A stretch of DNA of 64,000 nucleotides, from assembly GCF_022829295.1 (NCBI RefSeq), contig NZ_JAKSYH010000049.1:1-64000 (forward strand), read 5' to 3'. This DNA comes from Methylobacterium sp. J-088. GTDB lineage: Bacteria > Pseudomonadota > Alphaproteobacteria > Rhizobiales > Beijerinckiaceae. Shown piece after piece: positions 24,823-45,156 of the stretch. The translations under genes were made by a program, and so were the position numbers. The notes beneath the pieces were generated by a model. It was not told the origin of the DNA, ran no database searches, and saw only the letters and a list, made by a program, of their open reading frames with translations. Within the stretch, counting starts at the first letter, position 1. The number at the start of each line of letters is the position of its first letter.

Positions 24823-25758
24823 ATGACGCTGCCCGCCACGCTCGCCGCACAAGCCCGCGCATTTGCCGATCAGGCGCTCTCCGAAAATTCCCGTCGGGCC
24901 TATCGCGCCGACTGGCAGCACTACACGGCGTGGTGCCGCGGCCACGGGATCGAGCCGCTGCCCGCAGGCCCCGAGCAGGTCGCGAGCTATCTCACCTCGA
25001 TGGCCGAGACCCATAAGCGCGCCACGATCGAGCGCAGGCTCGTCACGATTGGTCAAGCCCACAAGCTCCAGGGTCTTCCGTGGATCCCGGCGCATCCCGC
25101 GGTCCGGGCGGCTCTGCGCGGCATGTTCCGGCGGTACGGCAGGCCGAAGAAGCAGGCCGCGGCGTTCGGCGTGCCGGAAACCCTCCAGATCGTCTCAGCC
25201 TGCGAGGGCACGGTGGCGGCTTTGCGCGACCGGGCGCTGTTCCTCATGAGCTTCGCCGGCGCGTTCCGGCGCTCCGAAGTCGCGCGGATCCGCTTCGAGG
25301 ATCTCGGTTTCCGCGACGGCGCAGTCGATGTGTTCCTGCCGCAATCCAAGGGCGATCAGGAGGGCGAGGGCACGATCGTGACTGTCCTGGCCGGCGCGCA
25401 CATCGCGACGTGCCCCGTTGCCGCGCTTCGGCGCTGGCTGCAGGCCGCCCCGACCCAGGGCTACGTCTTCCGGGCCGTCCGAGCCGATGGGACCGTGATG
25501 GATGACGGGCTTCATCCCGACTCGATCGGCCGCATCGTCCAGAAGCGCGCCGCGGAGGCCGGCCTCGTCGCCGGGCCGCGCGAGCGGATTTCGGCGCACG
25601 GGTTCCGCGCGGGCTTCATCACCGAGGCCTACAAGCGTGGATCGCGCGACGAGGAGATCATGAGCCACTCGCGCCATCGCGATCTCAAGACGATGCGCGG
25701 CTATGTCCGCCGCGCGAAGCTTTCGGATGCGCATCCGGGTCGGAACATCGGGCTCTGA
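24823..25758 (+). CDS. tyrosine recombinase/integrase
   Basis: A 311-residue enzyme with a good ribosome site (GGAGAAAG). The N-terminal SAM-like core-binding domain spans about 1-100 (SENSRRAYRADWQHYTAWC). The catalytic domain has Arg in FAGAFRRSEVARIRFEDL, a Lys region in LPQSKGDQEGEG, the HGFRAGF box, and the nucleophile Tyr in MRGYVRRAKLSDAHPG. All expected catalytic elements are visible, so it is probably active. It cuts and rejoins DNA through a 3'-phosphotyrosine link. It opens the catabolic stretch to its right. No tRNA attachment site is visible nearby. Confidence 0.92.
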   Translation: MTLPATLAAQARAFADQALSENSRRAYRADWQHYTAWCRGHGIEPLPAGPEQVASYLTSMAETHKRATIERRLVTIGQAHKLQGLPWIPAHPAVRAALRGMFRRYGRPKKQAAAFGVPETLQIVSACEGTVAALRDRALFLMSFAGAFRRSEVARIRFEDLGFRDGAVDVFLPQSKGDQEGEGTIVTVLAGAHIATCPVAALRRWLQAAPTQGYVFRAVRADGTVMDDGLHPDSIGRIVQKRAAEAGLVAGPRERISAHGFRAGFITEAYKRGSRDEEIMSHSRHRDLKTMRGYVRRAKLSDAHPGRNIGL

Positions 25759-26001: not shown

Positions 26002-27822
26002 TTACGCCGCGGAACGGCTGGCGACGTAGGGGCGCCAGCCACCGAACTGCGTGATGTCGACCGCACCGGTGACCCCCGCTGACTCCACCAGAAAACCCTT
26101 TGGCGCGGATCCGTCGGCGAGGCGCAGGGTGCCGATCGCGAGCGGTTCCGGGATGGCGGCCACGAAGGCCCCGAAGGCGGCTGGCGGCAGGGCCCAGACC
26201 TCCGTCTCGATCGCCCCCCCTTCGTCGCCGGCCACCCGGAGCAGTCCGGGTCGATGCGGCGGCCCGCCGGGTAGGGCGTAGAGGCGGTATTCCGGTCGGG
26301 TCGCCACGGTCCGCAGGTACCGGGCGCCGTGCGCGGCAAGTTCGTGGTTCAGCGGCAGGCCCGACAGATGCGCCCCAACGACCGCCAGCTCGATCTCGCC
26401 TGGCCGCGCCCGGACCGGCCCTGGGTCCGCGTCCGGAACCGGCGACTCCCCCGCGCCGATCCTGCCGGCAGACGCCGCGTGAAGGCGCGCACCCAGAGCG
26501 GCGAGGAGCCCGTCGGACCCGCGCGGCGCCAGCAGGGTGATCCCGGAGGGAAAACCGTCGGTGCGGGGCCGCCCCGGGACCGCGAGGGCACACCAGTCGA
26601 GCAGGTTGACGAAGTTGGTGTAGGTTCCGAGCTCGCTGTTGGGGCCGATCGGATCGGCGACCAAAGCAGCGCAGGTCTGCGGACGCGGATAGGTCGGCAC
26701 CGCGAGCAGGTCGACGCGCTCCCAGATCGCGTCCGCGTCCCGGCGCAGCTCCACAAGGCGGTAAAGGCCCCCGAAGGCGTCGGCGGCGCTGCAGCGCTCG
26801 GCGGCGGCGATCACGGCCCGCGTCGTCGAATGCAGGATCTCGGGGCGCGTCTCCATGATCGGTCGGATCGCCGCGTAGCGCTCGGCGACCCAGGGCCCGT
26901 CGTAAAGCAGGGCCGCGACGGCAAACATCGGCGCGAAATCAACTGGCGCGGCCGCCTCAGCGAGTGTTTCGAGATCAGCAATCGCCGCCGCGAAGGCCGC
27001 CTCCGAGAGGCCGTCGCCGCCGAAACGGAGGCTCGCCGCGTCCGGCAATCCGAGGCGCAGGCCCGGCGGGAGGCCGGCGGGCGCGGGCGGGACCGGCAAG
27101 GCCCGCGACCAGGGATCGGCGCTGTCGAAGCCCAGCATGGCCCGGAAGGCCGCATCGGCGTCGGCGACGGTGCCGGCAAAGACGGAGAGCGTGTCGAGGG
27201 TTCGGCAGGCCGGCAGCATCCCGCGGCTGGAGACCGCCCCGAGGGACGGCTTCAGCCCGACGATATTGTTGAGCGCCGCCGGCACCCGGCCAGAGCCCGC
27301 CGTGTCGGTCCCAAGCGCGAAGGTAACGATTCCGTGGGCCACCGCGACGGCCGAGCCGCTGCTGGAGCCGCCGGGCACGTAGGCTGGATCGATGGCGTTG
27401 CGCGGCGCCGGATAGGGCGTGCGCACGCCGACGAGACCGGTGGCGAACTGGTCGAGGTTGGTCTTGCCGATCAGGATCGCCCCGGCGGCCAGGAGCTGCC
27501 CCACCGCGGGCGCCGTCTCGGTCGGCGTATAGGCGAAGTCCGGACAGGCGGCGGTGGTCGGCAGGCCGGCCACGTCGATGTTGTCCTTGACGGCGAAGAG
27601 CACGCCCCAGAGCGGCATCGCCGCCGGGTCGAAGGGCGGGAGCGCTGCCGCGGCAGCCTGCGCCTCAGCCTCCGGTACCAGGGCGAGGAAGATGCCGGGA
27701 TCGTCCACCGCGGCGAGCCGGCGGTAAGCCTCGGCAACGACGGTGCGCGGGTCCTGGCCCGCGGCATAGGCCGCGTGCAGCGCGGGGATCGTCGGGAAGG
27801 GAGGCACGGTCAATCCTCGCAT
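26002..27822 (-). CDS. atzF: allophanate hydrolase AtzF
   Basis: A 606-residue amidase-signature enzyme. The catalytic Lys79 is in FAVKDNID, the cis-Ser in GGSSSGSA (about 154), and the nucleophile Ser177 in GTDTAGSGRVPA. After the amidase domain (about 1-440) comes the C-terminal domain typical of allophanate hydrolases, ending DITQFGGWRPYV. The enzyme splits allophanate (urea-1-carboxylate) into ammonia and CO2, the last step of urea amidolyase, cyanuric acid and biuret breakdown. It is the last gene of a five-gene unit with an ABC transporter and a PuuE-like deacetylase, 6 bases after the latter. No urea carboxylase gene is nearby. Confidence 0.92.
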   Translation of the reverse strand: MRGLTVPPFPTIPALHAAYAAGQDPRTVVAEAYRRLAAVDDPGIFLALVPEAEAQAAAAALPPFDPAAMPLWGVLFAVKDNIDVAGLPTTAACPDFAYTPTETAPAVGQLLAAGAILIGKTNLDQFATGLVGVRTPYPAPRNAIDPAYVPGGSSSGSAVAVAHGIVTFALGTDTAGSGRVPAALNNIVGLKPSLGAVSSRGMLPACRTLDTLSVFAGTVADADAAFRAMLGFDSADPWSRALPVPPAPAGLPPGLRLGLPDAASLRFGGDGLSEAAFAAAIADLETLAEAAAPVDFAPMFAVAALLYDGPWVAERYAAIRPIMETRPEILHSTTRAVIAAAERCSAADAFGGLYRLVELRRDADAIWERVDLLAVPTYPRPQTCAALVADPIGPNSELGTYTNFVNLLDWCALAVPGRPRTDGFPSGITLLAPRGSDGLLAALGARLHAASAGRIGAGESPVPDADPGPVRARPGEIELAVVGAHLSGLPLNHELAAHGARYLRTVATRPEYRLYALPGGPPHRPGLLRVAGDEGGAIETEVWALPPAAFGAFVAAIPEPLAIGTLRLADGSAPKGFLVESAGVTGAVDITQFGGWRPYVASRSAA

Positions 27823-27828
27823 CGAGGC

Positions 27829-28743
27829 TCAGGCTTCGTCGCCGGTGGCGCGATACCAGTCGAGGATCTCAGTCCCCTGCATGAAGACCACGTCGCTGCG
27901 CGCCAGGATGGCGTCGAGCAGCCGCTCCAGCAGGCCGATGCGGTGCGGGACGCCGGTGATGTAGGGGTGGATCGCAAAGCCCATCACTTTGGCGCCGCCC
28001 AGCGGGCCGGGACCCGCGGCCTCGGCGGCGAGGCGGTCGAGGTTGGCAAGCGCCCGCTCGACGAACTCGTCGGCCCTGTGGTGCTGGATGGCGAGCAACG
28101 GGATGTCGTTCAGCTCGACCGAGTAGGGGAGGGTGACGAGGTCGCCCGTCCGCGTCGATACCCGGCACGGGCGGTCGTCGACCACGAAGTCGCCGACGTA
28201 TTCGATGCCGGCCGCGTGCAGGTGGTCGGGCGTATCGAGCGTCTCGGTGAGGCCGGGCCCCAGCCAGCCGCGCGGCGGACGCCCCGTGAGTTCGGTGATC
28301 GCCGCGACGGTGCGAGCGATCATCTCGGGTTGGTCTTCGACCCGGTGGGTGGGGACTTGGTGGAAACCGTGGGCCATGAACTCCCAGTCGGCTGCGTGGG
28401 CGGCTTCGGCGATGCGGGGATAGGCCGTGCAGACCGAGCCGTTGATCGACAGGGTCGGGCGGATCCCGCGGCTCTCGAACGCCTCGAGAAAGCGCCAGAA
28501 GCCGACCCGCATCCCGTACTCGTGCCACGCCCAATTCGGGAGGTCGGGTAGCAGGCTTGCGGCGGTCGGCGGCACCAGGATCTGGCGCGGCATCGGATGG
28601 TCGATCAGCCAGTGCTCGACATTGACCACGGGCCAGACGGCGACGTGCTTGCCCCCGGGCAAGGTGTGCCGGGGCCGGTCGATGGCGGCGCGGTAGGCGA
28701 GGCGGTTCTCGGGCCGGCGGGGATCGTCGGGGGCCATGTCCAT
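27829..28743 (-). CDS. polysaccharide deacetylase family protein, PuuE-like amidohydrolase
   Basis: A 304-residue NodB-fold protein. The first metal motif of true deacetylases is replaced by PVVNVEHW, as in the PuuE/urate-catabolism branch. The segments LSINGSVCTAYP, FMAHGFHQVPTH and GFAIHPYITGVPHRIG follow that branch. PuuE-type proteins are proposed to open ring amides such as allantoin rather than to deacetylate sugars. Its coupling to AtzF (6-base gap) suggests that it produces, two or more steps earlier, a ureido compound leading to allophanate. Its start overlaps the ATPase stop by one base. The substrate is inferred only. Confidence 0.75.
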   Translation of the reverse strand: MDMAPDDPRRPENRLAYRAAIDRPRHTLPGGKHVAVWPVVNVEHWLIDHPMPRQILVPPTAASLLPDLPNWAWHEYGMRVGFWRFLEAFESRGIRPTLSINGSVCTAYPRIAEAAHAADWEFMAHGFHQVPTHRVEDQPEMIARTVAAITELTGRPPRGWLGPGLTETLDTPDHLHAAGIEYVGDFVVDDRPCRVSTRTGDLVTLPYSVELNDIPLLAIQHHRADEFVERALANLDRLAAEAAGPGPLGGAKVMGFAIHPYITGVPHRIGLLERLLDAILARSDVVFMQGTEILDWYRATGDEA

Positions 28744-29525
28744 CAGGCGGCCGCCCGCGGGGCGTGGTGGCTGTGGAGCTGGGCCGCCAACATCCGGCGC
28801 AGGTCGTTGAAGGCCGGGCTCGACACGTCGCGCCGCCGCACCAGCTCGACCGGATGGATCGTCTCAATCCGGCCGGGGCCGGGCGACATCATCACGATGC
28901 GATCGGCCAAAAAAATCGCCTCCTCGATCGCGTGCGTGACGAACAAGATCGTCAGACCCGTCCGCGACCAGAGGTCGAGCAATTCGTCCTGCAACCGCTC
29001 GCGGGTCATGGCGTCGAGCGCCCCGAAGGGCTCGTCCATCAACACCACCTCGGCCTCGTTGGCGAGCACCCGGGCGATGGCGACCCGCTGCTTCATCCCG
29101 CCCGAGAGCTGGTGCGGGTAGGCCTCGGCGAAGGACTGGAGACCCACGAGGGCGATGTAGCGCTCGGCGGTGTCGCGCACCTCGGCGGCGGGCCGCCCGC
29201 GCGCCTTCGGGCCGAAGCCGATATTGTCGCGCACGGTGAGCCACGGGAACAGGCCGTAATCCTGGAAGACCATGCCGCGGCTCGGTCCCGGTCCCGCGAT
29301 GGGCTTGCCCCACATCAGGGCCTCGCCGGAGGTCGGGGCTTCGAAACCGGCGGCGACCCGCAGCAGCGTCGACTTCCCGCAGCCCGAGGCGCCGAGCAGG
29401 CAGACAAACTCGCCCCGCGATACGGTGAGGTTCGCCTCGCGCAGAGCCTCGGTCCGCCGGCCGCCGGCCACGTAGGTCTTGGAGACCGCGCGCATGTCGA
29501 GGATCGGAATCGTGGGGTCAGCCAT
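28743..29525 (-). CDS. ABC transporter ATPase, NitT/TauT (SsuB/TauB) family
   Basis: A 260-residue ATPase with all motifs: Walker A LLGASGCGKSTLL, Q-loop MVFQDYGLFPW, signature LSGGMKQRVAIARVLA, Walker B VVLMDEPFGALD and switch FVTHAIEEAIFL. This family energises uptake of nitrate, taurine, sulfonates, pyrimidines and other small anions or heterocycles. It overlaps the permease gene upstream by 8 bases and the deacetylase gene downstream by 1 base, so the unit is translationally tight. Confidence 0.9.
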   Translation of the reverse strand: MADPTIPILDMRAVSKTYVAGGRRTEALREANLTVSRGEFVCLLGASGCGKSTLLRVAAGFEAPTSGEALMWGKPIAGPGPSRGMVFQDYGLFPWLTVRDNIGFGPKARGRPAAEVRDTAERYIALVGLQSFAEAYPHQLSGGMKQRVAIARVLANEAEVVLMDEPFGALDAMTRERLQDELLDLWSRTGLTILFVTHAIEEAIFLADRIVMMSPGPGRIETIHPVELVRRRDVSSPAFNDLRRMLAAQLHSHHAPRAAA

Positions 29526-30372
29526 GAGTGGGGCTCCAGGCGAGCAGCCGGCGGCCCAGCTGCATGACCAGCCAGTCCGAGACGAAGCCCGCGACCCCGA
29601 TCACCGCCATGCCGCAGATCACGATCTCGGTGCGCGAGAGCTGGCGCGCCTCCATGATGATCGCGCCGAGACCGGTCTGGACGCCGGTCATCTCGCCGAC
29701 CACGATCACCACCCAGGCGAAGCCGAGGCCGAGGCGCAGGCCGGTGAAGATCGACGGCAGGGCTGCCGGCAGCACCACGCGGACGAACTGCGCCGGACCG
29801 GTGCAGCCCAGCATCGCCGCCGCCTCGAACAGGCGTGGCTCCACCGACCGCACGCCGAACACGGTGTTGACCAGGATCGGGTAGAACGCCCCGAGAAACA
29901 CGAGGAAGAAGGCCGAGCGGGGTCCCAGGCCGAACAGGATCATGGCGAGCGGCAGCCACGCGGTCACCGGTACGGGTCGCAGCACCTGCAGGACCGGATC
30001 GAGCAACGCCCGGATCAGCGGAACGCGGCCGATCAGCAGGCCGAGCGGCAGGGCGGCGGCGGCGGCCAGCGCGAAGCCGCCGTAGACGCGGCTCAGCGAG
30101 GCCGCGAGATGGGTCCAGAGCGTGCCGCTGAACGCGTCGTCGTTGATGCCGCCGAATGCGAGGTCCTGCAATTCCGCCCAGACGTCCGCCGGCGGCGGGA
30201 TCAGGCTGTAGGGCCGGCCCGCGGTGGTGACCTGCCAGAGCGCGAGCAGCAGAGCCGGCACCACGCAGGCCAGGGCCAGCCGGCGCAGGCCGGCGAATCG
30301 GAGGCCGCCCCGTCGCGGGGCGGAGGCCGGCGCCGCCGCCGGCAGCGCGCCGGCCTCGATCCCGGTGCTCAC
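29518..30372 (-). CDS. ABC transporter permease, NitT/TauT family
   Basis: A 284-residue inner-membrane protein from a GTG at 30372 that overlaps the binding-protein stop by 4 bases. About six helices are visible. The permease EAA-type loop is LFEAAAMLGCTGPAQFVRVVLP, followed by LPSIFTGLRLGLGFAWVVIV. It forms the channel of the first NitT/TauT-type importer. The same frame stays open upstream into the binding-protein gene, but only the part from 30372 has the permease sequence. Confidence 0.88.
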   Translation of the reverse strand: MSTGIEAGALPAAAPASAPRRGGLRFAGLRRLALACVVPALLLALWQVTTAGRPYSLIPPPADVWAELQDLAFGGINDDAFSGTLWTHLAASLSRVYGGFALAAAAALPLGLLIGRVPLIRALLDPVLQVLRPVPVTAWLPLAMILFGLGPRSAFFLVFLGAFYPILVNTVFGVRSVEPRLFEAAAMLGCTGPAQFVRVVLPAALPSIFTGLRLGLGFAWVVIVVGEMTGVQTGLGAIIMEARQLSRTEIVICGMAVIGVAGFVSDWLVMQLGRRLLAWSPTHG

Positions 30373-31319
30373 GCCCGCCCCATCGCGTCGACGAAAAGGG
30401 TGTCGATGAAGCCGGGCTCGGGCAGCCGCTTGATCTGCTTGAGCGCCAGCATGTGCTGCGCGTAGGCGTGCGCCTGCCGGACCTCGTCCGGCCCGAGGCG
30501 CCAGGTCAGCTCGACGTTCGGGGCCGACAGTTCCAGCGCATCGCGCTTCTGGCCGAGCTTGGCCACCGCCATGGCGATCATCGCGTTGCGGTCGCCGGCC
30601 GCGAAGTCGGTGGCCTTGCGGTGAATCTCCAGCATGGTCCGGACGAGGTCCGGCCGCTCGGCCAGCGTGTCGCGGTGGGCGCCGAACACCATGTTGAGGG
30701 CGCCCATCTCGGTGCCGTAGGGGTACTCGACGAGCTGGCCGACGCCCGAGGCGAGGCTGACGCCGGGCCCCGGCTCGGCGCCGACATAGGCATCGACATC
30801 GCCGCGGGCGAGCGCGATGTGCATCTCCGAGAAGGAGATCCGCACCGGCGTGATGTCCTTCACGGACAGCCCCTCCATGCGCATCCGCTCCAGGACGAAC
30901 ACCTCCTGGGTGCTGCCGGGCCAGATCGCGACCCGCTTGCCGCGCAGGTCCTTGATGGCGTGGATGTCGGAACCCTTCTTGGCGATCACCGCCATGCCGC
31001 GGTTGCAGGTGGAGGCGATCACCACGAGCGGCTCGCCGGCGGCGGCGCCCAGCGTGGCGGCGGCGATGCCGAAGGTTCCGAAATCCACCGATTTGGTGAC
31101 CACGGCGTTCTTGCACTCGGTCGGGCTCTCGAACGGCACGACCTCGACGGTCACGCCCGCGGGGGTGAAGCGCTCGTAGAAGCTCGGCGCGATCGAGTGG
31201 ATCAGCTTGAGGGAGCCCATCCGGATCGTCACGGGCGTCCCCGCGGCGCGGGCTCGCGACAGCGGACCGAGGGCGAGGCCGGCCCCGAGACCGGCCAGGA
31301 GGGTACGGCGTCGGATCAT
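30369..31319 (-). CDS. ABC transporter substrate-binding protein, NitT/TauT family, Tat-exported
   Basis: A 316-residue protein from the ATG at 31319, which gives MIRRRTLLAGLGAGLALGP, a twin-arginine-like signal ending near ARAA. The mature part has the NMT1/SsuA-like fold: IRMGSLKLIHSIAPSFYE, VDFGTFGIAAATLGAAAG, KDLRGKRVAIWPGSTQEV and YVGAEPGPGVSLASG. It captures the substrate in the periplasm. Sequence does not tell which, but the downstream AtzF and PuuE-like enzymes suggest a ureido or N-heterocyclic compound. Lead gene of the unit, divergent from a LysR regulator. Confidence 0.88.
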   Translation of the reverse strand: MIRRRTLLAGLGAGLALGPLSRARAAGTPVTIRMGSLKLIHSIAPSFYERFTPAGVTVEVVPFESPTECKNAVVTKSVDFGTFGIAAATLGAAAGEPLVVIASTCNRGMAVIAKKGSDIHAIKDLRGKRVAIWPGSTQEVFVLERMRMEGLSVKDITPVRISFSEMHIALARGDVDAYVGAEPGPGVSLASGVGQLVEYPYGTEMGALNMVFGAHRDTLAERPDLVRTMLEIHRKATDFAAGDRNAMIAMAVAKLGQKRDALELSAPNVELTWRLGPDEVRQAHAYAQHMLALKQIKRLPEPGFIDTLFVDAMGRA

Positions 31320-31400: not shown

Positions 31401-31417
31401 GTTGCATTTTATGCAAC
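31401..31417. promoter_or_regulatory. LysR-type operator palindrome
   Basis: GTTGCA-tttta-TGCAAC is a perfect 6-bp inverted repeat containing the LysR consensus shape T-N11-A (TGCATTTTATGCA, 31403-31415). It lies between the divergent ABC unit (start 31319) and the lysR gene (start 31436). It is the likely recognition site of that regulator. Confidence 0.7.
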
Positions 31418-31435: not shown

Positions 31436-32332
31436 GTGAAGCATCTGCGCACCGTCACCTACGTCGCCGAGGTCGCGCGGGCCGGCTCGATCCGGCGCGC
31501 CGCGGAGCGGCTGAACCTGACGCCCTCGGCGTTGACGCGGCAGATCCAGGATCTCGAATACGAGCTCGGCACGCCGATCTTCGAGCGTCTGCCGCAGGGC
31601 ATGCGGCTCAACGCAGCCGGCGAACTCTTCGCGCGGCACATCCGCGACCAAGCCGCGGACCTCGACCGCGTGCGCTCGCAGATCGCCGATCTGTCGGGGG
31701 TGCGCCGGGGTCACGTGTCGCTCGCCTGCAGCCAGGCTTTCGTCACGCAGGTGGTGCCCGAGGAGGTCGAGGCCTACCGGGCCCGGTTTCCCCAGGTCGG
31801 CTTCATGGTCCAGGTCCGCGACCATGCGCAGGCCGTGACGGCCCTGGCGGCGTTCGAGGCCGATCTCGCCCTGATCCTGCAACCGCCGCCCTCGGCCGAG
31901 CTGCATCCGCTGTTCTCCGGACACCAGATCCTCTGCGCGCTGATGCGCACAGGGCATCCGCTGGCGTCGGAGACCGGGCCGGTCCGGCTGCGCGACTGCC
32001 TCGGCCATGCCCTGGCCCTGCCCGACCACTCGCTCGCCATCCGCCATCACATCGCGCACGCGCTGGCCCGGCGTGGGGTCGAACTCCGGCCGGTCGTCGA
32101 GTCGGGGTCGCTGGAATTCCTGCGCAACCTCGTCCTGCGCGAGGATCTCGTCAGCCTGCAGATCCCGAGCGGCATTCCCCAGGATCCGCGCCTGCACAGC
32201 CGCCCGATCGACCTCCGCGACTTGACGCCGATGACCCTGGTCCTCGCGCAGTTGCGCGGGCGATCGCTCTCGGTCGCGGCGGCGAAGTTCGCCGATCAGC
32301 TTGTCGTTCGGCTCAATCGGGAACCGGTCTGA
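31436..32332 (+). CDS. LysR family transcriptional regulator
   Basis: A 298-residue regulator from a GTG at 31436. The N-terminal helix-turn-helix is canonical (VARAGSIRRAAERLNLTPSA, then LTRQIQDLEYELGTPIFERL), and the C-terminal effector domain starts near residue 90 with GHVSLACSQAF. It diverges from the ABC-deacetylase-AtzF unit and presumably activates it when its inducer, perhaps the transported compound or a product, is present. Confidence 0.92.
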   Translation: MKHLRTVTYVAEVARAGSIRRAAERLNLTPSALTRQIQDLEYELGTPIFERLPQGMRLNAAGELFARHIRDQAADLDRVRSQIADLSGVRRGHVSLACSQAFVTQVVPEEVEAYRARFPQVGFMVQVRDHAQAVTALAAFEADLALILQPPPSAELHPLFSGHQILCALMRTGHPLASETGPVRLRDCLGHALALPDHSLAIRHHIAHALARRGVELRPVVESGSLEFLRNLVLREDLVSLQIPSGIPQDPRLHSRPIDLRDLTPMTLVLAQLRGRSLSVAAAKFADQLVVRLNREPV

Positions 32333-34230: not shown

Positions 34231-35583
34231 TCAGGACCGCGAAACCGGCTCCTCAGGCCCCGGACGCGCGAGACCGAGATGGTCCCGCAGGGTCGTGCCC
34301 GCATACGCGGTCCGGAACAGGCCGCGCTCCTGCAGCAGCGGCACGACCTCGCGTACGAAGTCGTCCAGTCCTTCGGGGAAGAACGGCGGCATGACGTTGA
34401 AGCCGTCCGCCGCGCCGCCCTCGAACCACGCCTGCATGCGGTCGGCAACATCCGCGGCCGTGCCGACGATCATGTGGTGCCCGCGCCCCGCCGCCACCCG
34501 CAGGGCGAGCTGGCGGATGGTCAGACCCTCCCGGCGCGCCAGGGCGGTGAGGAGTTCGGCCCGGCTGCGCAGCTGGTCCGAGACCGGCAGGTCGGGCAGG
34601 GGGCCGTCGAGGTCGTAGGATGCGAGCGAATGGCCGAGGCGCTCTTCCAGGAGCGGCATCGCGCTGGCGATGGGGGTCCACTGGTCGAGTTCGAACAGCT
34701 TCGCGCTCGCCTCTTTGAGCGTGCGACCGATTACCGGCAGGAAGCCCGGCATGACCGCCACCGAGGCCGGATCGCGCCCGAAGCCGGCGACCCGTTGTTT
34801 GAGGCTCGCATAGAAGCTCTGCGCCTCCGCGATGTCCTGCTGGGCGGTGAAGACCACGTCGGCCCTCCGCGCCGCGAGGTCCTGCCCGGGCCCTGACGAG
34901 CCGGCCTGGATCAGGATCGGGTGTCCCTGCGGCGAGCGCGGGATGTTGAGCGGTCCCTTCACGTTGAAATAGCGACCCGCATGGTCGAGGATCCGGACCT
35001 TGGCGGGATCGGCGTAGACCCCGCGGGTCTTGTCCTTCACGAAGGCGTCGTCGTCCCAGCTGTCCCAGAGACCGCAGACCACGTCCACGAACTCCTCGGC
35101 GACCGCGTAGCGCTCGTCATGCGCCGGGTGCGCCTTGGAGAAGTTGTTGGCCGTGCGCGCGTAGGAGGTCGTGACGACGTTCCAGGCCGCCCGGCCGCCG
35201 CTAAGGTGGTCGAGCGATGCGAAGGCGCGGGCCACATGGTAGGGCTCGCCGTAGGTGGTCGAGGCGGTCGCCGCGAGGCCGATCCGCTCCGTCACCATGG
35301 CGAGCGCGCTGAGCAGCGTCAGCGGCTCGAACCGGGCGATCATGGACGGGTGGGCGTCCACCGCGCTGGTGAGCCCGTCCGCCAGGAAAACCATGTCGAA
35401 CTTGGCGGCCTCGGCCGTCTGGGTGACCCGGCGCAGCAGATCGAAATTCTCGCTTCCGGCTTCCGCGTTCGGGTGGCGCCAGCCCGAGACGTGATGACCG
35501 GCCCCCTGGAGGAACAGGCCGAGATGCATCTGGCGCGGCGCGGCGTCGGGCTTGGTCCGGTCGGTCGTCATGGGGCGGCTCAC
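34231..35583 (-). CDS. NtaA/SnaA/DmoA family FMN-dependent monooxygenase
   Basis: A 450-residue luciferase-like flavin monooxygenase. The start is a GTG at 35583 overlapping the upstream stop, or the ATG at 35571. Family segments are FDMVFLADG, ATASTTYGEPYHVARAFASL, LSGGRAAWNVVTTSYARTA, and HPILIQAGSSGPGQDLAARR. Such enzymes use reduced FMN from a partner reductase to oxidise nitrilotriacetate, dimethyl sulfide, heterocycles or similar. No flavin reductase is adjacent. It ends a unit of a polar amino-acid-type ABC transporter and an MmgE/PrpD protein, pointing to an organic N or S compound as substrate. Confidence 0.88.
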   Translation of the reverse strand: MSRPMTTDRTKPDAAPRQMHLGLFLQGAGHHVSGWRHPNAEAGSENFDLLRRVTQTAEAAKFDMVFLADGLTSAVDAHPSMIARFEPLTLLSALAMVTERIGLAATASTTYGEPYHVARAFASLDHLSGGRAAWNVVTTSYARTANNFSKAHPAHDERYAVAEEFVDVVCGLWDSWDDDAFVKDKTRGVYADPAKVRILDHAGRYFNVKGPLNIPRSPQGHPILIQAGSSGPGQDLAARRADVVFTAQQDIAEAQSFYASLKQRVAGFGRDPASVAVMPGFLPVIGRTLKEASAKLFELDQWTPIASAMPLLEERLGHSLASYDLDGPLPDLPVSDQLRSRAELLTALARREGLTIRQLALRVAAGRGHHMIVGTAADVADRMQAWFEGGAADGFNVMPPFFPEGLDDFVREVVPLLQERGLFRTAYAGTTLRDHLGLARPGPEEPVSRS

Positions 35584-36905
35584 GGCTGGGCGAGGTGCTG
35601 GAGGAGGCGCGCGAGGTCGCCGGGCGTGCGCATGGTGCGCACGAGATCGGGCACCGCTTGGACTGCGTCGGAGCCCGCGGTGGCGTCGCGGAACTTGGCG
35701 TCGGCGTCGTCGAGCCCGGGCAGGCCGTCGATGCGCCGTTCAGCGATGCGGCCCTGCGCATCGGCGATTTCCACCACCACGAACCGCGTGCCCGGATCGG
35801 AGGACAGGCGCGGCGCGGACGTGTCGTGCCGGCGCTCGACCCGTTCGGCGAGTGCCGCGAGGTCGGGGCGGACCGGCCTTTCGTCGAAGTGATCGAGGCG
35901 CACCGCACCGTCCAGCACGGAAGCGGCCAGGATGTATTCCGGGCTGAAGCGGGCCTCGATCCCGGTGCGCGGTGTCCGGACAACCAGGGCGGCGTCACCC
36001 CCCGGAGGGAAGGTGATGGTCGCCCGCGTCAGGTTCCGGAACCCTTCGCCGTGGAAGGCGAGGCCGGCCATAGCCACCGGGTGGGCCGCGGTGCAGCACG
36101 GGAACGCCTTCAGGGTGAGGCCGGGGCGAAGGATCTGCCAGGGCGATCCCCAATTCTCCAGGACGCGCTCGGGCCGCGCCTCGCCGAATCCGTAGATCTC
36201 GAAGAAGCCGTTCGCCCCGTCGAGGTACTCGGGGGCACCGGACAGGCCAGCCTCTGCGAGCCGGGCCGCCATCAGGCCGTTGCGGGCGGCCAGCCCGGCA
36301 TGGAGCGGCTTGGCGTCGAAACCGAACTGCAGGCGCAGTCCTGCGGCCTGTGTGGCACCGAGGCCGAGGGCGATCCCGGTGGTCATGGCTGAGAACCCGC
36401 GCAGATGCGCGATCGCGGCGGCCGCGCCGAAGGGCCCCAGCGTCGCGGTAGCGTGGAAGCCGCGCTCGTAATGGGCGGGACCGATGGCGCGGCCGAGATG
36501 CGCCATCGTCTCCAGGCCGACCAGATAGGCGGCGAGGAACGCGTCAGCGGAGGGCAGCGCCCCCGGATCGAGGGCCGCCAGGAGCGCCGGCACGATCACC
36601 GTGGTGGGGTGCCCGCGCACGCTCGCGTGGACATCGTCGTAGTCGAGCACGTGCCCGGCATAGCCATTGAGCAAGGCGGCGAGAAGCGGTTCTGCGGGTC
36701 GTCCGGAGCCGATCACCGGGGACCGGCCGGGCGTGTCGCCCATCGCGGCCCGCACGGTCGCGACGGTGCGGTCCCGGCTTCCCGCCAGGGCGCAGGCGAG
36801 AAAGTCGACCAGAGCGCGGCGCGCCGCCGCCATCGCGGCGGCATCCGCGTCCGGACGGGCGGCCACGATGGCCTCAGCCAGGGCGGCGGTGCGTGAATCC
36901 GGCAT
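35580..36905 (-). CDS. MmgE/PrpD family protein
   Basis: A 441-residue protein of the MmgE/PrpD fold. Characteristic parts are FLACALAGS near residue 35, NGYAGHVLDYDDVH near 75, GHPTTVIVPALLA near 97, and FPCCTAAHP in the C-terminal half. Family members include 2-methylcitrate dehydratase, cis-aconitate decarboxylase and iminodisuccinate epimerase, so a dehydration, decarboxylation or epimerisation of a polycarboxylate is likely. Its start touches the ATPase stop by one base and its stop overlaps the monooxygenase start. This places it in the middle of unit B. Confidence 0.85.
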   Translation of the reverse strand: MPDSRTAALAEAIVAARPDADAAAMAAARRALVDFLACALAGSRDRTVATVRAAMGDTPGRSPVIGSGRPAEPLLAALLNGYAGHVLDYDDVHASVRGHPTTVIVPALLAALDPGALPSADAFLAAYLVGLETMAHLGRAIGPAHYERGFHATATLGPFGAAAAIAHLRGFSAMTTGIALGLGATQAAGLRLQFGFDAKPLHAGLAARNGLMAARLAEAGLSGAPEYLDGANGFFEIYGFGEARPERVLENWGSPWQILRPGLTLKAFPCCTAAHPVAMAGLAFHGEGFRNLTRATITFPPGGDAALVVRTPRTGIEARFSPEYILAASVLDGAVRLDHFDERPVRPDLAALAERVERRHDTSAPRLSSDPGTRFVVVEIADAQGRIAERRIDGLPGLDDADAKFRDATAGSDAVQAVPDLVRTMRTPGDLARLLQHLAQP

Positions 36906-37714
36906 CAGATGCCCTCTCGATCTTGTACCGCGTCGCGAAACCCCTGGAAGCCGCCGATGAACTGCCGGATGCGCGGGTTATCGGATCGGTAGAACAGCTC
37001 CGCGGGCGGCGCCTGCGCGACGATGCGGCCGTTCTCGGTGAACGCGATCGTGTCGCTGATCTCCTCGGCGAAGCGCATCTCGTGGGTGACCAGGATGCTG
37101 GTCAGCCCCTCGCGCACCAGCTCGCGGATCACGGCCAGCACCTCGCCGACCATCTCGGGATCGAGGGCCGAGGTCACCTCGTCGAACAGCACGAGTTCCG
37201 GCCGCATGGCGAGCGCCCGGGCGATGGCGACACGCTGCTGCTGGCCGCCCGAGAGTTCGCCCGGATAGGCCGAGATCTTGTCGGCCAACCGGACCCGGGC
37301 GAGCAGGTCCCGGGCGTGGCTCTCCGCCTCGGCGCGCGGCACCTTGAGGATCCGCACCGGCGCGAGGGTGATGTTCTCCAGCACCGTCAGGTGCGGGAAC
37401 AGGTTGTACTGCTGGAACACCACCCCGATGCGCTTGCGCAGGGCGATCCGTTCGGCCTCGCTGCGCAGGGTATCGACGCGCACGCCCGCCACGGTGATCC
37501 GGCCGGCCTGCGGCTGCGCGAGCCCGTTGATGCAGCGCAGGATGGTGGACTTGCCCGAGCCGGACGGGCCGATGATCGAGACCGCATCGCCCTTCGCCAC
37601 CGTGAGGTCGATGCCCTTCAGCACCTCGACCGCGCCGAAGGACAGGTGGACGTCCTAAAGGGCCACGAGGTTCGGCCGGTTTGCGGAATCCTGAGCCATC
37701 GAGTCGTGCGCCAT
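36905..37714 (-). pseudogene. polar amino-acid ABC transporter ATPase with in-frame amber codon
   Basis: The reading frame starts at ATG 37714 or 37699, runs through PNLVAL, and meets TAG at 37655-37657. It then continues without shift into DVHLSFGAVEVLKGI and a full GlnQ/HisP-like ATPase: Walker A IIGPSGSGKSTILRC, signature LSGGQQQRVAIARALA, Walker B LVLFDEVTSALD, and VTHEM. The lost residue would normally be Glu (GAG to TAG). A restart at GTG 37624 gives 239 residues but drops the A-loop Phe in LSFG that stacks on ATP. So the gene is either inactive, read through, or served by a restart. A sequencing error is also possible. Confidence 0.75.
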
Positions 37715-39259: not shown

Positions 39260-40117
39260 TCACGGCTTGGCCTGCCCGGCGAACTTGCGCTGCTCCGCCT
39301 CGAGGAAGGTCGGATCGACCAGCCGGTTGGCCTTGGCCATGTCCAGCATGGCCCCCGAGCCGTGCAGGTCGCGCACGGCGGCGTCGAGAGCCGCCGCGGT
39401 GTCGCGCTCGCCCTTACGCAGCCAGATCACGGAATCGGCCGGATCCAGCTCGGTCGGGATGACGATGGCGTAGTCCTTCCAGTCGTCCGGGCGGTCGGCG
39501 AGCAGGAGCTTGAGCGTCGGCGCCACGTGGACCGCGACCACGCAGTTGCCGCCCTGGAGCGCCAGCATCGATTCCGGCTGGCTCGGGATCCCCTTCACCA
39601 CGGCACCGTAGATGTCGGCGAGCGGCTGCGCGTAGTTCGAGCCCTGCGAGATGCAGACCGGCTTGCCCTTGAGGTCCGCCCAGTCGTGGATGCCGCTGTC
39701 CTTGCGCCCCAGCGCGGCGCCCCCGGCTCGGTCGTAGGGGGGCGGCACGTGGTCGAGGATCTTCGCGCGGTCCTCCGTGTACTGCATGTTGGCGATCAGG
39801 ATATCGACCTTGCCCTGCTGCAGGAACTGCACGCGGTTGGGCGGCGTGACGGTGACGAGCTCGACCTTCACGCCGAGCTTCTCGGCCAGCGCCCGGCCGA
39901 GGTCGATGTTGAACCCCTTCTCGGCGCGGGTCTGCGGGTCGATGTATCCGAACGGGGCCCCCGACAGGATGATGCCGACCGTGAGCTTCTGCCGCCCCTT
40001 GATCCGGTCGAGGGTGGCGTCCGCACGGGCCGCATCCGCCGCCAGCAGCCCGAGGGCCGCCAGGGCCAGCGCACCGGGGCGGCACGTCGACCAAAACTTC
40101 AACACGATGCGCACCAT
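39260..40117 (-). CDS. polar amino-acid-type ABC substrate-binding protein
   Basis: A 285-residue family 3 periplasmic binding protein. A signal peptide with a hydrophobic core (ALALAALGLLAADAARA) ends near residue 32. Markers are KLTVGIILSGAPFGYIDPQT, KGFNIDLGRALAEKLGVKVE, VDILIANMQYTEDRA and GKPVCISQGSNYAQPL. These proteins bind amino acids or similar zwitterions. Lead gene of unit B, with 229 bases between it and the divergent decarboxylase-like gene, where a shared promoter region probably lies. Confidence 0.9.
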   Translation of the reverse strand: MVRIVLKFWSTCRPGALALAALGLLAADAARADATLDRIKGRQKLTVGIILSGAPFGYIDPQTRAEKGFNIDLGRALAEKLGVKVELVTVTPPNRVQFLQQGKVDILIANMQYTEDRAKILDHVPPPYDRAGGAALGRKDSGIHDWADLKGKPVCISQGSNYAQPLADIYGAVVKGIPSQPESMLALQGGNCVVAVHVAPTLKLLLADRPDDWKDYAIVIPTELDPADSVIWLRKGERDTAAALDAAVRDLHGSGAMLDMAKANRLVDPTFLEAEQRKFAGQAKP

Positions 40118-40345
40118 GACGGCTCCGGTTCTCTGCGCGGGGCGGATCCCTCCATACGGGGCCTTGGGATGCGCGGAAAGCCGCGTCGGCCTCGGAGGAC
40201 AGCGGGGAGGCGGGCTTCACGTCGGAGATGCTCAGGTCCGCCTTCTCGAGGGCCGCGACAATGCCGGCAGCACCGCTGCGCGGGAACGATCCTTGCCAGC
40301 CGCGACTGCCGGGCTCGCGCCGAGCCGCATCGGGGACGGGCTGGG

Positions 40346-41080
40346 ATGATAAACACGCGGCAGACGGTCAGGCTCGGGATGCTGACGCCGTCCTCGAACA
40401 GCGTCCTCGAACCGATGACGGCCCGCCTGCTGGCCGGGCAACCGGGGATCACCGCCCATTTCGCGCGCCTGCGCGTGACGCAGATCGGGCTATCGACGGC
40501 CGCGCTCGGCCAATTCGATCAGGCGCCGATGCTGGCTGCCTCGGAGCTGCTTGCGGATGCCCGGGTCGCCGCGATCCTATGGAATGGCACGGCGGGGGCT
40601 TGGCTCGGCTTCGAGAACGATATGGCCCTGTCTGCGGCGATCACGCAGCGGACCGGCCTGCCGGCATCGACTTCGGCGCTCGCCTTCCGCGACCTGTTCC
40701 GGCGGCGCGGGATTGAACGCGTCGGATTGGTGACGCCCTATACGGGGGACGTCCAGGCGCGCATCCAGGCGAACTGGCAGGCCGACGGGCTCGACTGCTC
40801 GGCCGAGCGGCACCTTGGCCTGTCGGAGAACTTCTCGTTCGCTGAGGCCGATGAGGCCGAGATCGCCGGGATGGTCCGCGCCGTGGCGGCCGAGGGTGCC
40901 GAGGCGGCCGCCATCGTGTGTACCAACCTTGCGGGCGCCGCCCTCGCGCCCGCTCTTGAAGACGAGCTCGGGATCCCGGTCTACGATTCGGTGACGGTCA
41001 GTCTGTGGAAGGCGATGGATCTCGCCGGGCTGGACACGGCAGCGATCACCGGATGGGGCAGCGTGTTCGCGACGCCCTGA
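40346..41080 (+). CDS. arylmalonate decarboxylase/maleate isomerase-like protein
   Basis: A 244-residue protein of the Asp/Glu racemase superfamily, from an ATG with GGG upstream. It has LTPSSNSVLEP at the N-terminus, the maleate isomerase/arylmalonate decarboxylase marker. Of the two catalytic cysteines expected in isomerases and racemases only the second is present (Cys192 in AIVCTNLAG). The first position reads ILWNGTAGAW. A single late Cys is the arrangement of arylmalonate decarboxylase, which removes CO2 without cofactor. It diverges from unit B and may act on one of its intermediates. Confidence 0.75.
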   Translation: MINTRQTVRLGMLTPSSNSVLEPMTARLLAGQPGITAHFARLRVTQIGLSTAALGQFDQAPMLAASELLADARVAAILWNGTAGAWLGFENDMALSAAITQRTGLPASTSALAFRDLFRRRGIERVGLVTPYTGDVQARIQANWQADGLDCSAERHLGLSENFSFAEADEAEIAGMVRAVAAEGAEAAAIVCTNLAGAALAPALEDELGIPVYDSVTVSLWKAMDLAGLDTAAITGWGSVFATP

Positions 41081-41090
41081 AAGGCTCGAT

Positions 41091-41840
41091 TCAGGTGTCG
41101 TCCCGCTCGATCCAGCGCCGCAGGGCCGGTGCCAGCCCGGTCGCGGGCTTGGCCGGGGGCCGGGCGAAGCGGCCCACGCGCGGCGGACGTGCCCCGAGCC
41201 GGACCAGCGCCTGCGCCTGACCGAGGGCGGCCGCCAACGGATCGACCAGCGGCACCGGCACCGTTTCGCCGATGCGTGCTGCGAGGCCGGTCAGCGGGGC
41301 GCCGGCGAGGATCACAGCGTCGGCGCCGTCCTCGGCGACGACCCGGTTGGCCAGGGCGCCGATCTCCGCCTCCAGTTCGTGCTGCACCTCCGTGACCGAG
41401 CGGAAGGCCGCCGAGACCGCCCGGACACAGGCGCAGCGCGCCGAAAGGCCCGAGAGGGCAACCGCATCCTCGTACCAGGGCAGCAAAGTGCCCGAGAAGG
41501 TCACGATGCCGAAGCGTTGACCGAGCTGGCAGGCGGTCAGCAGCGACGCCTCGGCCATGCCGACGATGGGCAGGTCGAACAGCTCCCGCGCCGCGATCAA
41601 CCCAGGATCGCCGAAGGCCGCGATGACGGCGGCGTCGAAGCCCGCTTGGTGCTCCGCCAGGGCTTCCAGCACCGCGGCCCCCGCGAGCTGCGCCTCCGCG
41701 CGACTCGCGATGTAGGGCAGGCCCCGGGCGGCCGTCAGCGCTGTGAGCGTCACGTCCGGAGCAAGCGCGGCCGCGGCGGCCTGCTCCATCCGGGCCGTCA
41801 TGGCGGCCGAGGTGTTCGGATTGAGGAGGAGGAGCCGCAC
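41091..41840 (-). CDS. Asp/Glu/hydantoin racemase-fold protein without catalytic cysteines
   Basis: A 249-residue protein from a GTG at 41840, beginning RLLLLNPNTS as hydantoin racemases do. The first catalytic Cys site (usually ACFDDPG) reads AAFGDPG with Ala75. The second (usually LGCAGM) reads LAGAPL with Gly180 at the Cys position. Both acid/base cysteines are therefore absent, so a normal two-base racemase mechanism is unlikely. It could be a binding protein, a lyase of other mechanism, or a decayed copy, though the frame is intact. It lies 4 bases after the amidohydrolase stop, at the end of unit C. Confidence 0.75.
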   Translation of the reverse strand: MRLLLLNPNTSAAMTARMEQAAAAALAPDVTLTALTAARGLPYIASRAEAQLAGAAVLEALAEHQAGFDAAVIAAFGDPGLIAARELFDLPIVGMAEASLLTACQLGQRFGIVTFSGTLLPWYEDAVALSGLSARCACVRAVSAAFRSVTEVQHELEAEIGALANRVVAEDGADAVILAGAPLTGLAARIGETVPVPLVDPLAAALGQAQALVRLGARPPRVGRFARPPAKPATGLAPALRRWIERDDT

Positions 41841-41844
41841 GCCG

Positions 41845-43386
41845 TCAGACGCGCGAGTTCGGCCGGTAGAACGGTTCGTGCCGCGACGGGTCGATGTAGT
41901 CGGCATAGAAGCGTTTCGCGTGCGGCAGCAGGGCCTTGGAGAGCTGGCGCCGCTCGACCTCGTCGTCCGACAGCGCCCGCGACAGGTCGTCATGCAGCGC
42001 CTTGAGGGCGGCGTCCTTGTCGACCCGGGTGAAGCGGCCGTCGGCGTACAGCACCTCGCCCTCGCACAGCACCGTGGTGACGCCGCCGGTCTTGGCCCGC
42101 TGGATCACCGCGTCGAGAAGCGGCGTCTCCGGATCGAGATACGGATAGGCGATCTGGTCCCAGTCGATCAGGACGAGGTCGGCGCCCTTGCCGACTTCGA
42201 TCGTGCCGAGGCTGTCGCCGTACGGGGTAGTGCGGGCGCCGCCGACGGTGGCCATGCGCAGCACCTGGGCCATGCTCGGCACGTCGCCCTCGTCCATGCC
42301 GGGCACCCGGTGGGCGCGCAGCACGAGGCGCATCTCCTGGAGCATGTCGCGGTCGTCGTTGATGCCCGCCTCGTCGAGGCCGATCGCCGTGTTGATCCCC
42401 TTCGCCTCGAACCGGTTGAGCGCCGCCACGCCGGAGCGCAGCCGGAAGTTCGACGAGCAGTTGTGACAGATGCAGGTGCCGGTCGCCGCGACCCGGTCGA
42501 TGTCGGATTCGTTGAGCCAGACGCCGTGGCCGAGCGTGAGGCGGGGCCCCAGCATGCCGAACCGGTCGAGGTACTCGACCGCGGTGCCGCCGCCGCGCTT
42601 CTCCGCGTAGGCCTTCTGGTAGGCGGTCTCCACGAGGTGCATGTGCATCGGCACGTCGTAGGATTCGGACAGACCGGCGAGCCCTTCGAGGGCCGCGTCG
42701 GAGCACCAGTGCAGGTTGGCCGGCGCGAGCTGGATCCTGGCCCGCGAGGCCCCGGCCTGGCCGGAATGCAGGCTGCGGAACAGCGAGAAATTGTCCTCCA
42801 GGGACATCTGGAAGCGCTCGAACCAGCGCTTCATCGGGTCCTGCAGCGCCGCCGGGAGGCTCGCCACGAAATCCATGTCGGCTTGGTATACGAGGCGGTT
42901 CTGGTCGCGGACCGCGAAGCAGTACGAGACCCGCATGCCGATGTCGCGATAGGCGCGCAGCACCTCGTTGGAGCGCGCCTCGACTTCCTCCAGGCTGCCG
43001 GGCATCCAGCCGTGGATGTGCTGGACCGTGGTGATCCCGGAGCCGACCATCTCGAAGGCCGAGTACAGGGTGTCGAGATAAAGGTTCAGGTTGCGCGCCA
43101 CCATGCGGGTGACGAACCACAGCTCCAGCGGCATGTCGGGCGAGCCGAGCTGCACCGGCGTCAGGCCGACATGGTGGTGGCCGTTGACGAAGCCCGGCAG
43201 CAGGATCTCGCGGCCGGAGCCGATCACGGGAGCGTCGGGGTAGCGGGCGTGCAGGTCCGCGTAGGTGCCGAGGGCCTCGATGAGCCCGTCCTTCTGCAGC
43301 ACCGCGCCGTCGGCGATCTCCTCCCAGCGATCGTGGTCGAGGGTACGGGTGATCATCCGCCGGCTGCGGATCAGCGATGTGGTCAT
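41845..43386 (-). CDS. TRZ/ATZ-type amidohydrolase
   Basis: A 513-residue metal-dependent amidohydrolase. The metal His pair is in PGFVNGHHHVG (His70 and His72). A third His is in MHMHLVET, a fourth in LTLGHGVWL, and the metal Asp in AIGLDEAG. That is the full subtype III set of AtzA/AtzB/TrzN and cytosine or guanine deaminases. The C-terminal beta sandwich includes GKGADLVLIDWD. It hydrolyses a C-N or C-Cl bond on a ring compound, with water and one metal ion. It sits between an ABC transporter and a racemase-fold gene, so the ring compound is probably the transported one. Confidence 0.9.
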   Translation of the reverse strand: MTTSLIRSRRMITRTLDHDRWEEIADGAVLQKDGLIEALGTYADLHARYPDAPVIGSGREILLPGFVNGHHHVGLTPVQLGSPDMPLELWFVTRMVARNLNLYLDTLYSAFEMVGSGITTVQHIHGWMPGSLEEVEARSNEVLRAYRDIGMRVSYCFAVRDQNRLVYQADMDFVASLPAALQDPMKRWFERFQMSLEDNFSLFRSLHSGQAGASRARIQLAPANLHWCSDAALEGLAGLSESYDVPMHMHLVETAYQKAYAEKRGGGTAVEYLDRFGMLGPRLTLGHGVWLNESDIDRVAATGTCICHNCSSNFRLRSGVAALNRFEAKGINTAIGLDEAGINDDRDMLQEMRLVLRAHRVPGMDEGDVPSMAQVLRMATVGGARTTPYGDSLGTIEVGKGADLVLIDWDQIAYPYLDPETPLLDAVIQRAKTGGVTTVLCEGEVLYADGRFTRVDKDAALKALHDDLSRALSDDEVERRQLSKALLPHAKRFYADYIDPSRHEPFYRPNSRV

Positions 43387-43411
43387 GGTCGTGTCCGTGT
43401 TGGGGGAGGAG

Positions 43412-44248
43412 TCAGACGAGCGCTTCCTGCTCGGCGAAGGCCCGGTCGACCTCGTCGCGCAGGAGTTCCGTCAGATGCCGCCGCATCGCCTCGGCCTCGG
43501 GGGAGAACGGGTCGCGCGGGCGGGCGAGGTCGTTGCGGACGATCGTCTTGATCCGCCCGGGGCGGGCGGTGAACACCACCACCCGGTCGGCGAGCGCCAC
43601 CGCCTCGTCGATGTGGTGGGTCACGAACAGCACAGAGGCGCCGCTGTCGCGCCAGACGTCGAGCAGGAAGTCCTGCATCTTCTGGCGGGTCTGGACGTCG
43701 AGCGCCGCGAAGGGCTCGTCCATCAGCAGGACCTTCGGGCGCATGGCCAGCGCCCGGGCCACCGCCACCCGCTGGCGCATGCCGCCGGACAATTCGTCCG
43801 GCCGCTTGTCGAAGGCCTCGGCCAGGCCGACGCGCTGGAGTGCGGCCCGGGCGATGCTCCGCCGCTCGGCCTCCGGCAAACCCTTCAGCGACAGGCCGAA
43901 GCCGACGTTCTGCCAGACGCTGAGCCAGGGCAGCAGCGAGGTCTCCTGGAAGATCAGGCTGCGCTCGGGCGAGGGGCCGGTGACCGGGGCGCCGAAGGCC
44001 AGGAGCTCGCCCCCGGAGGCGGCCTCGAGCCCGGCGATCAGGTAGAGCAGCGTGCTCTTCCCGCAGCCCGACGGGCCGAGGAACACCACGAACTCGCCGG
44101 GCTTCACGGTGAGGTCGATGTCGCGCAGCGCCTCGTGCGCGCGGGCGGTGCCGGCCGCCCAGACCTTGGCGACGCCTCGGCAGGAGACGGCGTCGTCGGA
44201 GGCGGGATCGGAGGCCAGGAAATCAGAGACCAAGGGAGGACCCCGCAT
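43412..44248 (-). CDS. ABC transporter ATPase, NitT/TauT family
   Basis: A 278-residue ATPase: Walker A FLGPSGCGKSTLLY, Q-loop LIFQETSLLPWLS, signature LSGGMRQRVAVARALA, Walker B VLLMDEPFAALD, and FVTHHIDEAVAL. The start overlaps the permease gene by 26 bases, and the stop is 25 bases before the amidohydrolase gene. It energises the second NitT/TauT-type importer of the stretch. Confidence 0.9.
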   Translation of the reverse strand: MRGPPLVSDFLASDPASDDAVSCRGVAKVWAAGTARAHEALRDIDLTVKPGEFVVFLGPSGCGKSTLLYLIAGLEAASGGELLAFGAPVTGPSPERSLIFQETSLLPWLSVWQNVGFGLSLKGLPEAERRSIARAALQRVGLAEAFDKRPDELSGGMRQRVAVARALAMRPKVLLMDEPFAALDVQTRQKMQDFLLDVWRDSGASVLFVTHHIDEAVALADRVVVFTARPGRIKTIVRNDLARPRDPFSPEAEAMRRHLTELLRDEVDRAFAEQEALV

Positions 44249-45152: not shown

Positions 45153-45156
45153 CCGC

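Follow-up and report, generated by a model that had tools for sequence, protein, structure and literature searches.

The gene cluster examined here raises the question of where an allophanate hydrolase obtains its substrate. The window, the whole stretch of DNA that was analysed, comprises 64 kb of the draft genome of Methylobacterium sp. J-088 (6.4 Mb in 285 contigs, 99.83% complete). Six of its genes, between positions 26002 and 32332, form a five-gene unit on the reverse strand and a divergent gene for a LysR-family regulator on the forward strand. The unit combines an ATP-binding cassette (ABC) transporter with a NodB-fold, PuuE-like putative ring-opening hydrolase, here called NodB, and with the allophanate hydrolase AtzF. 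Allophanate is taken to derive from urea, from biuret or triuret, from s-triazines or from guanidine derivatives. We consider it rather likely that this LysR-controlled cassette takes up and hydrolyses a small cyclic imide or ureide, giving the cell nitrogen by a route that ends at allophanate.

The genes of the unit overlap or nearly touch each other, as the original prediction had described. The genes for the periplasmic binding protein (NMT1/SsuA type, PF09084; 30369..31319, start at 31319), the permease (PF00528; 29518..30372), the ATPase (28743..29525), NodB (304 amino acids; 27829..28743) and AtzF (606 amino acids; 26002..27822, with a possible alternative start at 27813) follow one another on the reverse strand. 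Overlaps of 4, 8 and 1 bases connect the first four genes in this order, and 6 bases separate NodB from AtzF. The LysR gene (31436..32332, forward strand; PF00126, PF03466) has 116 bases between its start and that of the binding-protein gene. Its best NCBIfam match, CynR, reaches 106 bits at a cut-off of 277.

The AtzF protein can be assigned to the allophanate hydrolase family by its score, its C-terminal domain and its site residues. It reaches 777 bits on TIGR02713, well above the cut-off of 511, carries an amidase domain (PF01425) followed by an AH_C domain (PF21986, E 6e-47), and has the allophanate hydrolase 4gyr as its best PDB match (E 7e-161). At E<=1e-100 the genome gave no second match of this kind, and 13 amidase-family matches were listed overall. 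Residues K79, S154, S177, Y307 and R315 are kept in 50 of 50 AtzF sequences (from 91 loci); we take the lysine and the serines to be those of the amidase triad, and Y307 and R315 to be the Tyr/Arg substrate pair. S154 is one of the serines of a GSSSGS motif, and the spacing suggests that S153 may be the cis-serine instead. The conservation of S177 is not independent, since the AtzF frames were picked via the string GTDTAGS. Two variants were observed among relatives. In ten cassettes (L053-L062), AtzF is apparently split into an amidase frame of ~455-459 amino acids and a separate AH_C stretch, which the family search confirmed for L053 only. A second AtzF type, ~52% identical, lies in four other loci (L161-L163, L165) near a ureD-like urease accessory gene (ureD assigned by eye), and no urea carboxylase was found in these genomes with TIGR02712.

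AtzF uses urea only via urea carboxylase. This enzyme gave only partial TIGR02712 matches in the J-088 genome, none above the cut-off; biuret hydrolase BiuH (NF050097) was not found at E<=1e-90, nor cyanuric acid hydrolase (PF09663) at E<=1e-3. The lack of these three enzymes, claimed earlier, thus holds genome-wide for these sources, with CgdAB and guanylurea hydrolase outside the search. With the three known sources missing, an undescribed nitrogen-scavenging route is possible.

The association of the genes was followed across the genus in 89 genomes, J-088 among them, with thresholds of E<=1e-60 for the binding protein, E<=1e-100 for AtzF and E<=1e-50 for an alpha/beta-hydrolase (ABH) that belongs to the cassette in many relatives. 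The binding protein is encoded in 44 genomes, referred to as carriers. AtzF is present in 44/44 carriers and 22/45 non-carriers (p 5e-9), the ABH in 44/44 and 26/45 (p 3e-7), and NodB orthologues in 28/44 and 1/45 (p 9e-11; 29/89 overall), two NodB matches (G307 and G346; 43-54%) having been excluded as paralogues. The only non-carrier with NodB (G349) encodes the permease, the ATPase, NodB and the ABH on a 3.6-kb contig. Within the genus, the constant members at the genome level are the transporter, AtzF and the ABH, and NodB is a frequent extra. AtzF lies no more than 8 kb from the binding-protein gene in 24 of the carriers. None of the three allophanate sources was found in 14 of these 24, compared with 0 of the 20 carriers with AtzF elsewhere (p 3e-5). 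Urea carboxylase, biuret hydrolase and cyanuric acid hydrolase occur in 18, 30 and 28 of the 89 genomes, respectively, and urea carboxylase is found in carriers mostly where AtzF is unlinked (10/20 vs 4/24 linked). A role of NodB as a replacement for cyanuric acid hydrolase was also considered; the latter occurs in 13 of the 28 carriers with NodB and in 2 of the 16 without, so the two do not exclude each other and a simple replacement is disfavoured.

These genes are found grouped in other genera too, which shows that their association is beyond chance. Ten genomes outside the genus (G082 and nine from one family, f20) have a single row of AtzF, the binding protein, the permease, the ATPase and NodB, with 56-60% identity in the binding protein; in one of these cassettes (L062), NodB was only partly matched. 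The ABH follows NodB in G082, and in Devosia indica the ABH and an asparaginase are inserted before NodB. Another genome of the genus (G218) keeps the transporter, NodB, LysR and the ABH together, with AtzF on another contig. Screening named genomes for the binding protein yielded 283 loci, of which 80 were kept, with a bias towards close relatives. Neighbours were counted by tblastn within 4 kb of the transporter genes at an identity of at least 40%, and gene calls in relatives were made with our own scripts, scoring codons or third-position GC content. AtzF was found in 40 of these loci, the ABH in 49, NodB in 27, AtzH in 6 and asparaginase in 4; at least one of AtzF, ABH, NodB or AtzH is present in 68. 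Fourteen of the 80 loci stop less than 2.5 kb downstream of the transporter genes, including 3 of the 12 without any of these enzymes, and upstream ends were left uncounted. In one Xanthobacteraceae locus, a glutaminase (L122:12661-13602) follows the transporter ATPase, and AtzF is divergent there. In a locus of the genus (L182), the contig with the cassette also encodes, at a distance of ~10 kb, a hydantoin-racemase-type protein, an amidase of the hydantoinase/carbamoylase family and a member of the dihydroorotase family.

NodB had been predicted to be a PuuE-like protein, and its fold and site agree with this. Its score on TIGR03212, the PuuE allantoinase model, is 86.8 bits, far under the cut-off of 424.6, and membership in the allantoinase family was rejected on that account. 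A profile of 15 relatives retrieved the PuuE-type structures 1z7a, 3s6o and 3cl6 first (E 4e-36 to 7e-35), then HpPgdA and 3rxz at 1e-19, and carbohydrate deacetylases only at 8e-5 to 5e-4. The AlphaFold model (predicted local distance difference test, pLDDT, 90.8; 29 sequences) matches PuuE 3cl6 with a Z-score of 33.3 and a root-mean-square deviation of 2.1 over 285 aligned residues at 25% identity, tied with 3s6o (Z 33.7). The three PuuE-type entries lie at 33.1-33.7, 3rxz at 30.5 and HpPgdA (3qbu) at 28.8, and the other 45 entries listed do not exceed 19.3. The best-scoring chitin deacetylase gave 19.2, and no characterised carbohydrate deacetylase exceeded that value. The model thus places NodB in a wider group of PuuE-fold hydrolases, with a fold match far above that of other NodB-fold proteins.

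Residues N41, E43, H125, W160, D189, D190, N212, D213, H259 and R268 are invariant in 29/29 NodB sequences. The His-x3-His metal pair of carbohydrate esterase 4 is lost, as the residue four positions after H125 is Q in 28 of the 29 and R in one; this position is a tryptophan in PuuE and a histidine in HpPgdA. NodB shares fold and conserved site residues with PuuE allantoinase, and the identification as a polysaccharide deacetylase was rejected because of the fold and the lost second metal histidine. HpPgdA is stated to be inactive on allantoin in a passage of PMC3084791. A cyclic imidase of this structural kind is backed by genetic and metabolite evidence in Aspergillus nidulans: passages of PMC9304392 give 64% identity between the fungal HxnM and the cyclic imide hydrolase of Pseudomonas putida, and describe HxnM as resembling HpPgdA. 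The likeness of NodB to these enzymes, which open cyclic imides, goes through HpPgdA by description, not by sequence, and HpPgdA has the second metal histidine, unlike the NodB family. Four Devosia loci have an asparaginase next to NodB, and in another locus (L071) an asparaginase and hydantoinase A occur close to a NodB paralogue; this arrangement fits the opening of an imide followed by removal of the amide nitrogen.

In the ABH, the motifs HGGYW and G-x-S-A-G are conserved in 50/50 copies. Its solved relatives include kynurenine formamidase, ranked behind a lipase and a putative esterase. In J-088 it is intact and located on another contig (C122), outside the cassette. A gene passing the HpxZ/AtzH model is present on contig C42. 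The six AtzH genes of the 80 loci directly follow AtzF. A passage of PMC6219798 proposes that AtzH converts 1,3-dicarboxyurea to allophanate during cyanurate breakdown, and its position next to AtzF in these loci would accordingly point to N-carboxylated urea intermediates. In one locus of the genus (L167, genome G361), AtzF, AtzH and AtzE (by eye) adjoin an ABC transporter of NMT1/THI5 type and rut-type pyrimidine genes including RutB, and BiuH lies in the same locus.

The control by LysR assumed in the original prediction is consistent with a conserved palindrome. The element GTTGCATTTTATGCAAC, a putative LysR box at 31401..31417 (no strand), lies in the spacer between the LysR and binding-protein genes. 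It has the form GTTGC-N7-GCAAC and contains a T-N11-A dyad, which is usual for LysR regulators. The pattern GTTGC-N6/7-GCAAC occurs once in the window and is present in 32 of 45 relatives with a LysR gene heading the cassette, Brucella grignonensis, Pelagibacterium and Devosia pacifica among them, and missing in 13. This looser pattern was selected after viewing the alignment of relatives; an exact search, with 6-base arms and a 3-base loop as well as with the window's own arms, found the palindrome in 0/38 relatives. Another 33 loci of the genus (L155-L187) showed the N7 form at one site outside a cassette (L178) and at one site in a cassette spacer (L174), and one cassette locus (L173) lacks it. 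The conserved palindrome thus lends support to a predicted LysR control of the unit. The ABH was rejected as a member of this regulon, with no palindrome in the 12 kb around it.

What is computed here comprises the gene identities, the PuuE fold and site, the AtzF family, the co-occurrence, the operator-like palindrome and the absence of three sources from this genome. From these, we infer the substrate, the order of NodB and the ABH, the role of the ABH, and allophanate rather than a close analogue as the input of AtzF. The binding protein and the ABC transporter would import a small cyclic imide or ureide, whose ring would be opened by the PuuE-type NodB. The ABH may act on the imported compound or on the ring-opened product, and in the simplest mechanism its hydrolysis would yield allophanate, which AtzF would turn into ammonia and CO2. 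That the PuuE-like enzyme starts the route, as predicted, is plausible for J-088; it does not hold generally, NodB being optional (28 of the 44 carriers). NodB is missing from 16 carriers, and 15 of the 80 loci pair AtzF with the ABH without NodB or AtzH, so NodB is not a universal first step. The missing step had been expected to be supplied elsewhere in the genome. The ABH on C122, found in every carrier, is a candidate for it, with the reservation that 26 of the 45 non-carriers have an ABH as well.

Several observations weigh against the cyclic imide or ureide route. Besides the optional NodB and the ABH common in non-carriers, AtzF is away from the binding-protein gene in 20 of the 44 carriers, and 12 of the 80 loci are without any of the enzymes. 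At least one of the three allophanate-source enzymes was found in 30 carriers, and urea carboxylase is itself enriched with the binding protein (14/44 vs 4/45, p 0.009). The p values exaggerate independence, as the genomes are related. In a search of 297 genomes of the order with NodB, 131 genomes matched at E<=1e-20; loci were available for 30 of the matches, and the surroundings of 20 were retrieved; of nine fetched NodB relatives with ~50% identity, only that of D. indica (G005) adjoins this transporter, the other eight regions being without it. The ABH of J-088 has no LysR palindrome nearby, and the model of the binding protein (pLDDT 62, 11 sequences) is too poor for ligand inference, for which reason a reading of the pocket was dropped.

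Among other explanations, the one that survives best, although unlikely, is that NodB and the ABH are interchangeable for one step, each replacing the other, with AtzF alone coming after. Near the binding-protein gene, NodB is the only partner of AtzF in 11 loci and the ABH the only one in 15. The 24 genomes with linked AtzF divide into 17 with NodB and 7 without, and in 6 of these 7 the ABH stands beside the binding protein. However, both enzymes are near it in 15 of the 80 loci, in Devosia and G082 the two enzymes accompany one and the same transporter, and one cassette (G364) has neither.

It is also quite unlikely that AtzF removes stray allophanate, or a similar acylurea such as oxalurate, that arises elsewhere, while the transporter imports a different compound. 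AtzH-type proteins do pass HpxZ, a model for oxalurate catabolism. AtzF loci elsewhere in the genus have as neighbours ureD-/sdh-type genes, rut-type genes, an NCS2-type permease, BiuH, or AtzE/AtzH, many of these labels having been assigned by eye; these purine- and pyrimidine-type surroundings are suggestive of purine or pyrimidine breakdown and are not decisive. Against this explanation, AtzF co-occurs with this particular transporter across genera.

That the transporter is one for nitrate, taurine or sulfonates, with unrelated enzymes as neighbours, is very improbable. The ATPase is closest to nitrate/taurine types, the permease is TauC/SaoP/SsuC/NtrB-like, and the binding protein resembles SsuA; yet the transporter proteins remain under the cut-offs of the family matches listed (all 25 NCBIfam matches for the ATPase, each of those for the permease, and 124.3 bits at a cut-off of 163.5 on TIGR01728, the SsuA family, for the binding protein). 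Moreover, the 68 of 80 loci retaining an enzyme, and AtzF and ABH in all 44 carriers, do not fit unrelated neighbours. The binding protein is 94-97% identical in Methylobacterium relatives, and its leader, read by eye, is twin-arginine-like. Hardly credible is a true allantoinase in a unit serving allantoin, with AtzF dealing with the urea released later: NodB has the PuuE fold and allantoin supports growth of Methylobacterium strains (PMC5017803), but the allantoinase score of NodB is far too low, urea carboxylase was not found in this genome with TIGR02712, and NodB orthologues occur in 29/89 genomes, whereas passages of the same paper report complete allantoin-degradation gene sets in 27/29 Methylobacterium genomes.

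The proposed uptake and hydrolysis cassette shares features with known systems. In comparison with the atzDGEHF cyanuric acid operon of Pseudomonas sp. ADP, as outlined in passages of PMC6219798, ring opening, hydrolysis of an intermediate and AtzF are common to both, as is AtzH after AtzF in the six loci. However, AtzD was not detected in this genome (PF09663, E<=1e-3), a PuuE-fold protein and/or the ABH adjoins AtzF, and a transporter with a periplasmic binding protein belongs to the unit. The triuret/biuret operon with TrtA, BiuH and AtzF (passages of PMC7948467) also carries AtzF as the last step, while here BiuH was not found at the above threshold and the unit has no isochorismatase-type enzyme. 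Urea amidolyase likewise shares AtzF, its partner urea carboxylase staying below the cut-off here.

More broadly, these genes may, as a tentative and still doubtful generalization, represent a widespread alphaproteobacterial allophanate route without urea carboxylase, biuret hydrolase or cyanuric acid hydrolase, in which an ABC transporter, a PuuE-type imidase and the HGGYW-type ABH feed AtzF, via dicarboxyurea where AtzH is present. In its boldest form, NodB and the ABH would take the places of AtzD and AtzE without being related to them, with cyanurate or a comparable cyclic tri- or di-imide as the substrate. No description of this cassette was apparent in the titles, abstract starts or passages of the open-licence PMC papers listed by the searches. 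With a conserved cassette whose AtzF has none of the three sources in its genome, other origins of allophanate can be tested for directly, using three purified enzymes and the binding protein. If true, the route would suggest a function for a PuuE-like branch to which the family libraries used give no other label than polysaccharide deacetylase or distant allantoinase, and would name a nitrogen source for Methylobacterium, Devosia and their relatives.

Other genes surround the unit. Immediately downstream of AtzF, a phage-integrase-family protein (PF00589) is encoded at 24823-25758, possibly marking the edge of a mobile segment. On the other side, an NtaA/DmoA-type flavin mononucleotide (FMN) monooxygenase, an MmgE/PrpD protein and an amino-acid-type ABC ATPase are closely spaced at 34231-37624. 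The monooxygenase and PrpD genes adjoin the cassette in only one of the 80 loci (L077), and this operon was thus excluded from the unit. A second possible ureide/imide island lies next to the unit at 39260-46221. It contains an arylmalonate decarboxylase/EutA-like gene (40379-41080), an Asp/Glu/hydantoin racemase (41091-41840), an ATZ/TRZ-type amidohydrolase (41845-43356) and a second NMT1-type ABC transporter (43412-46221).

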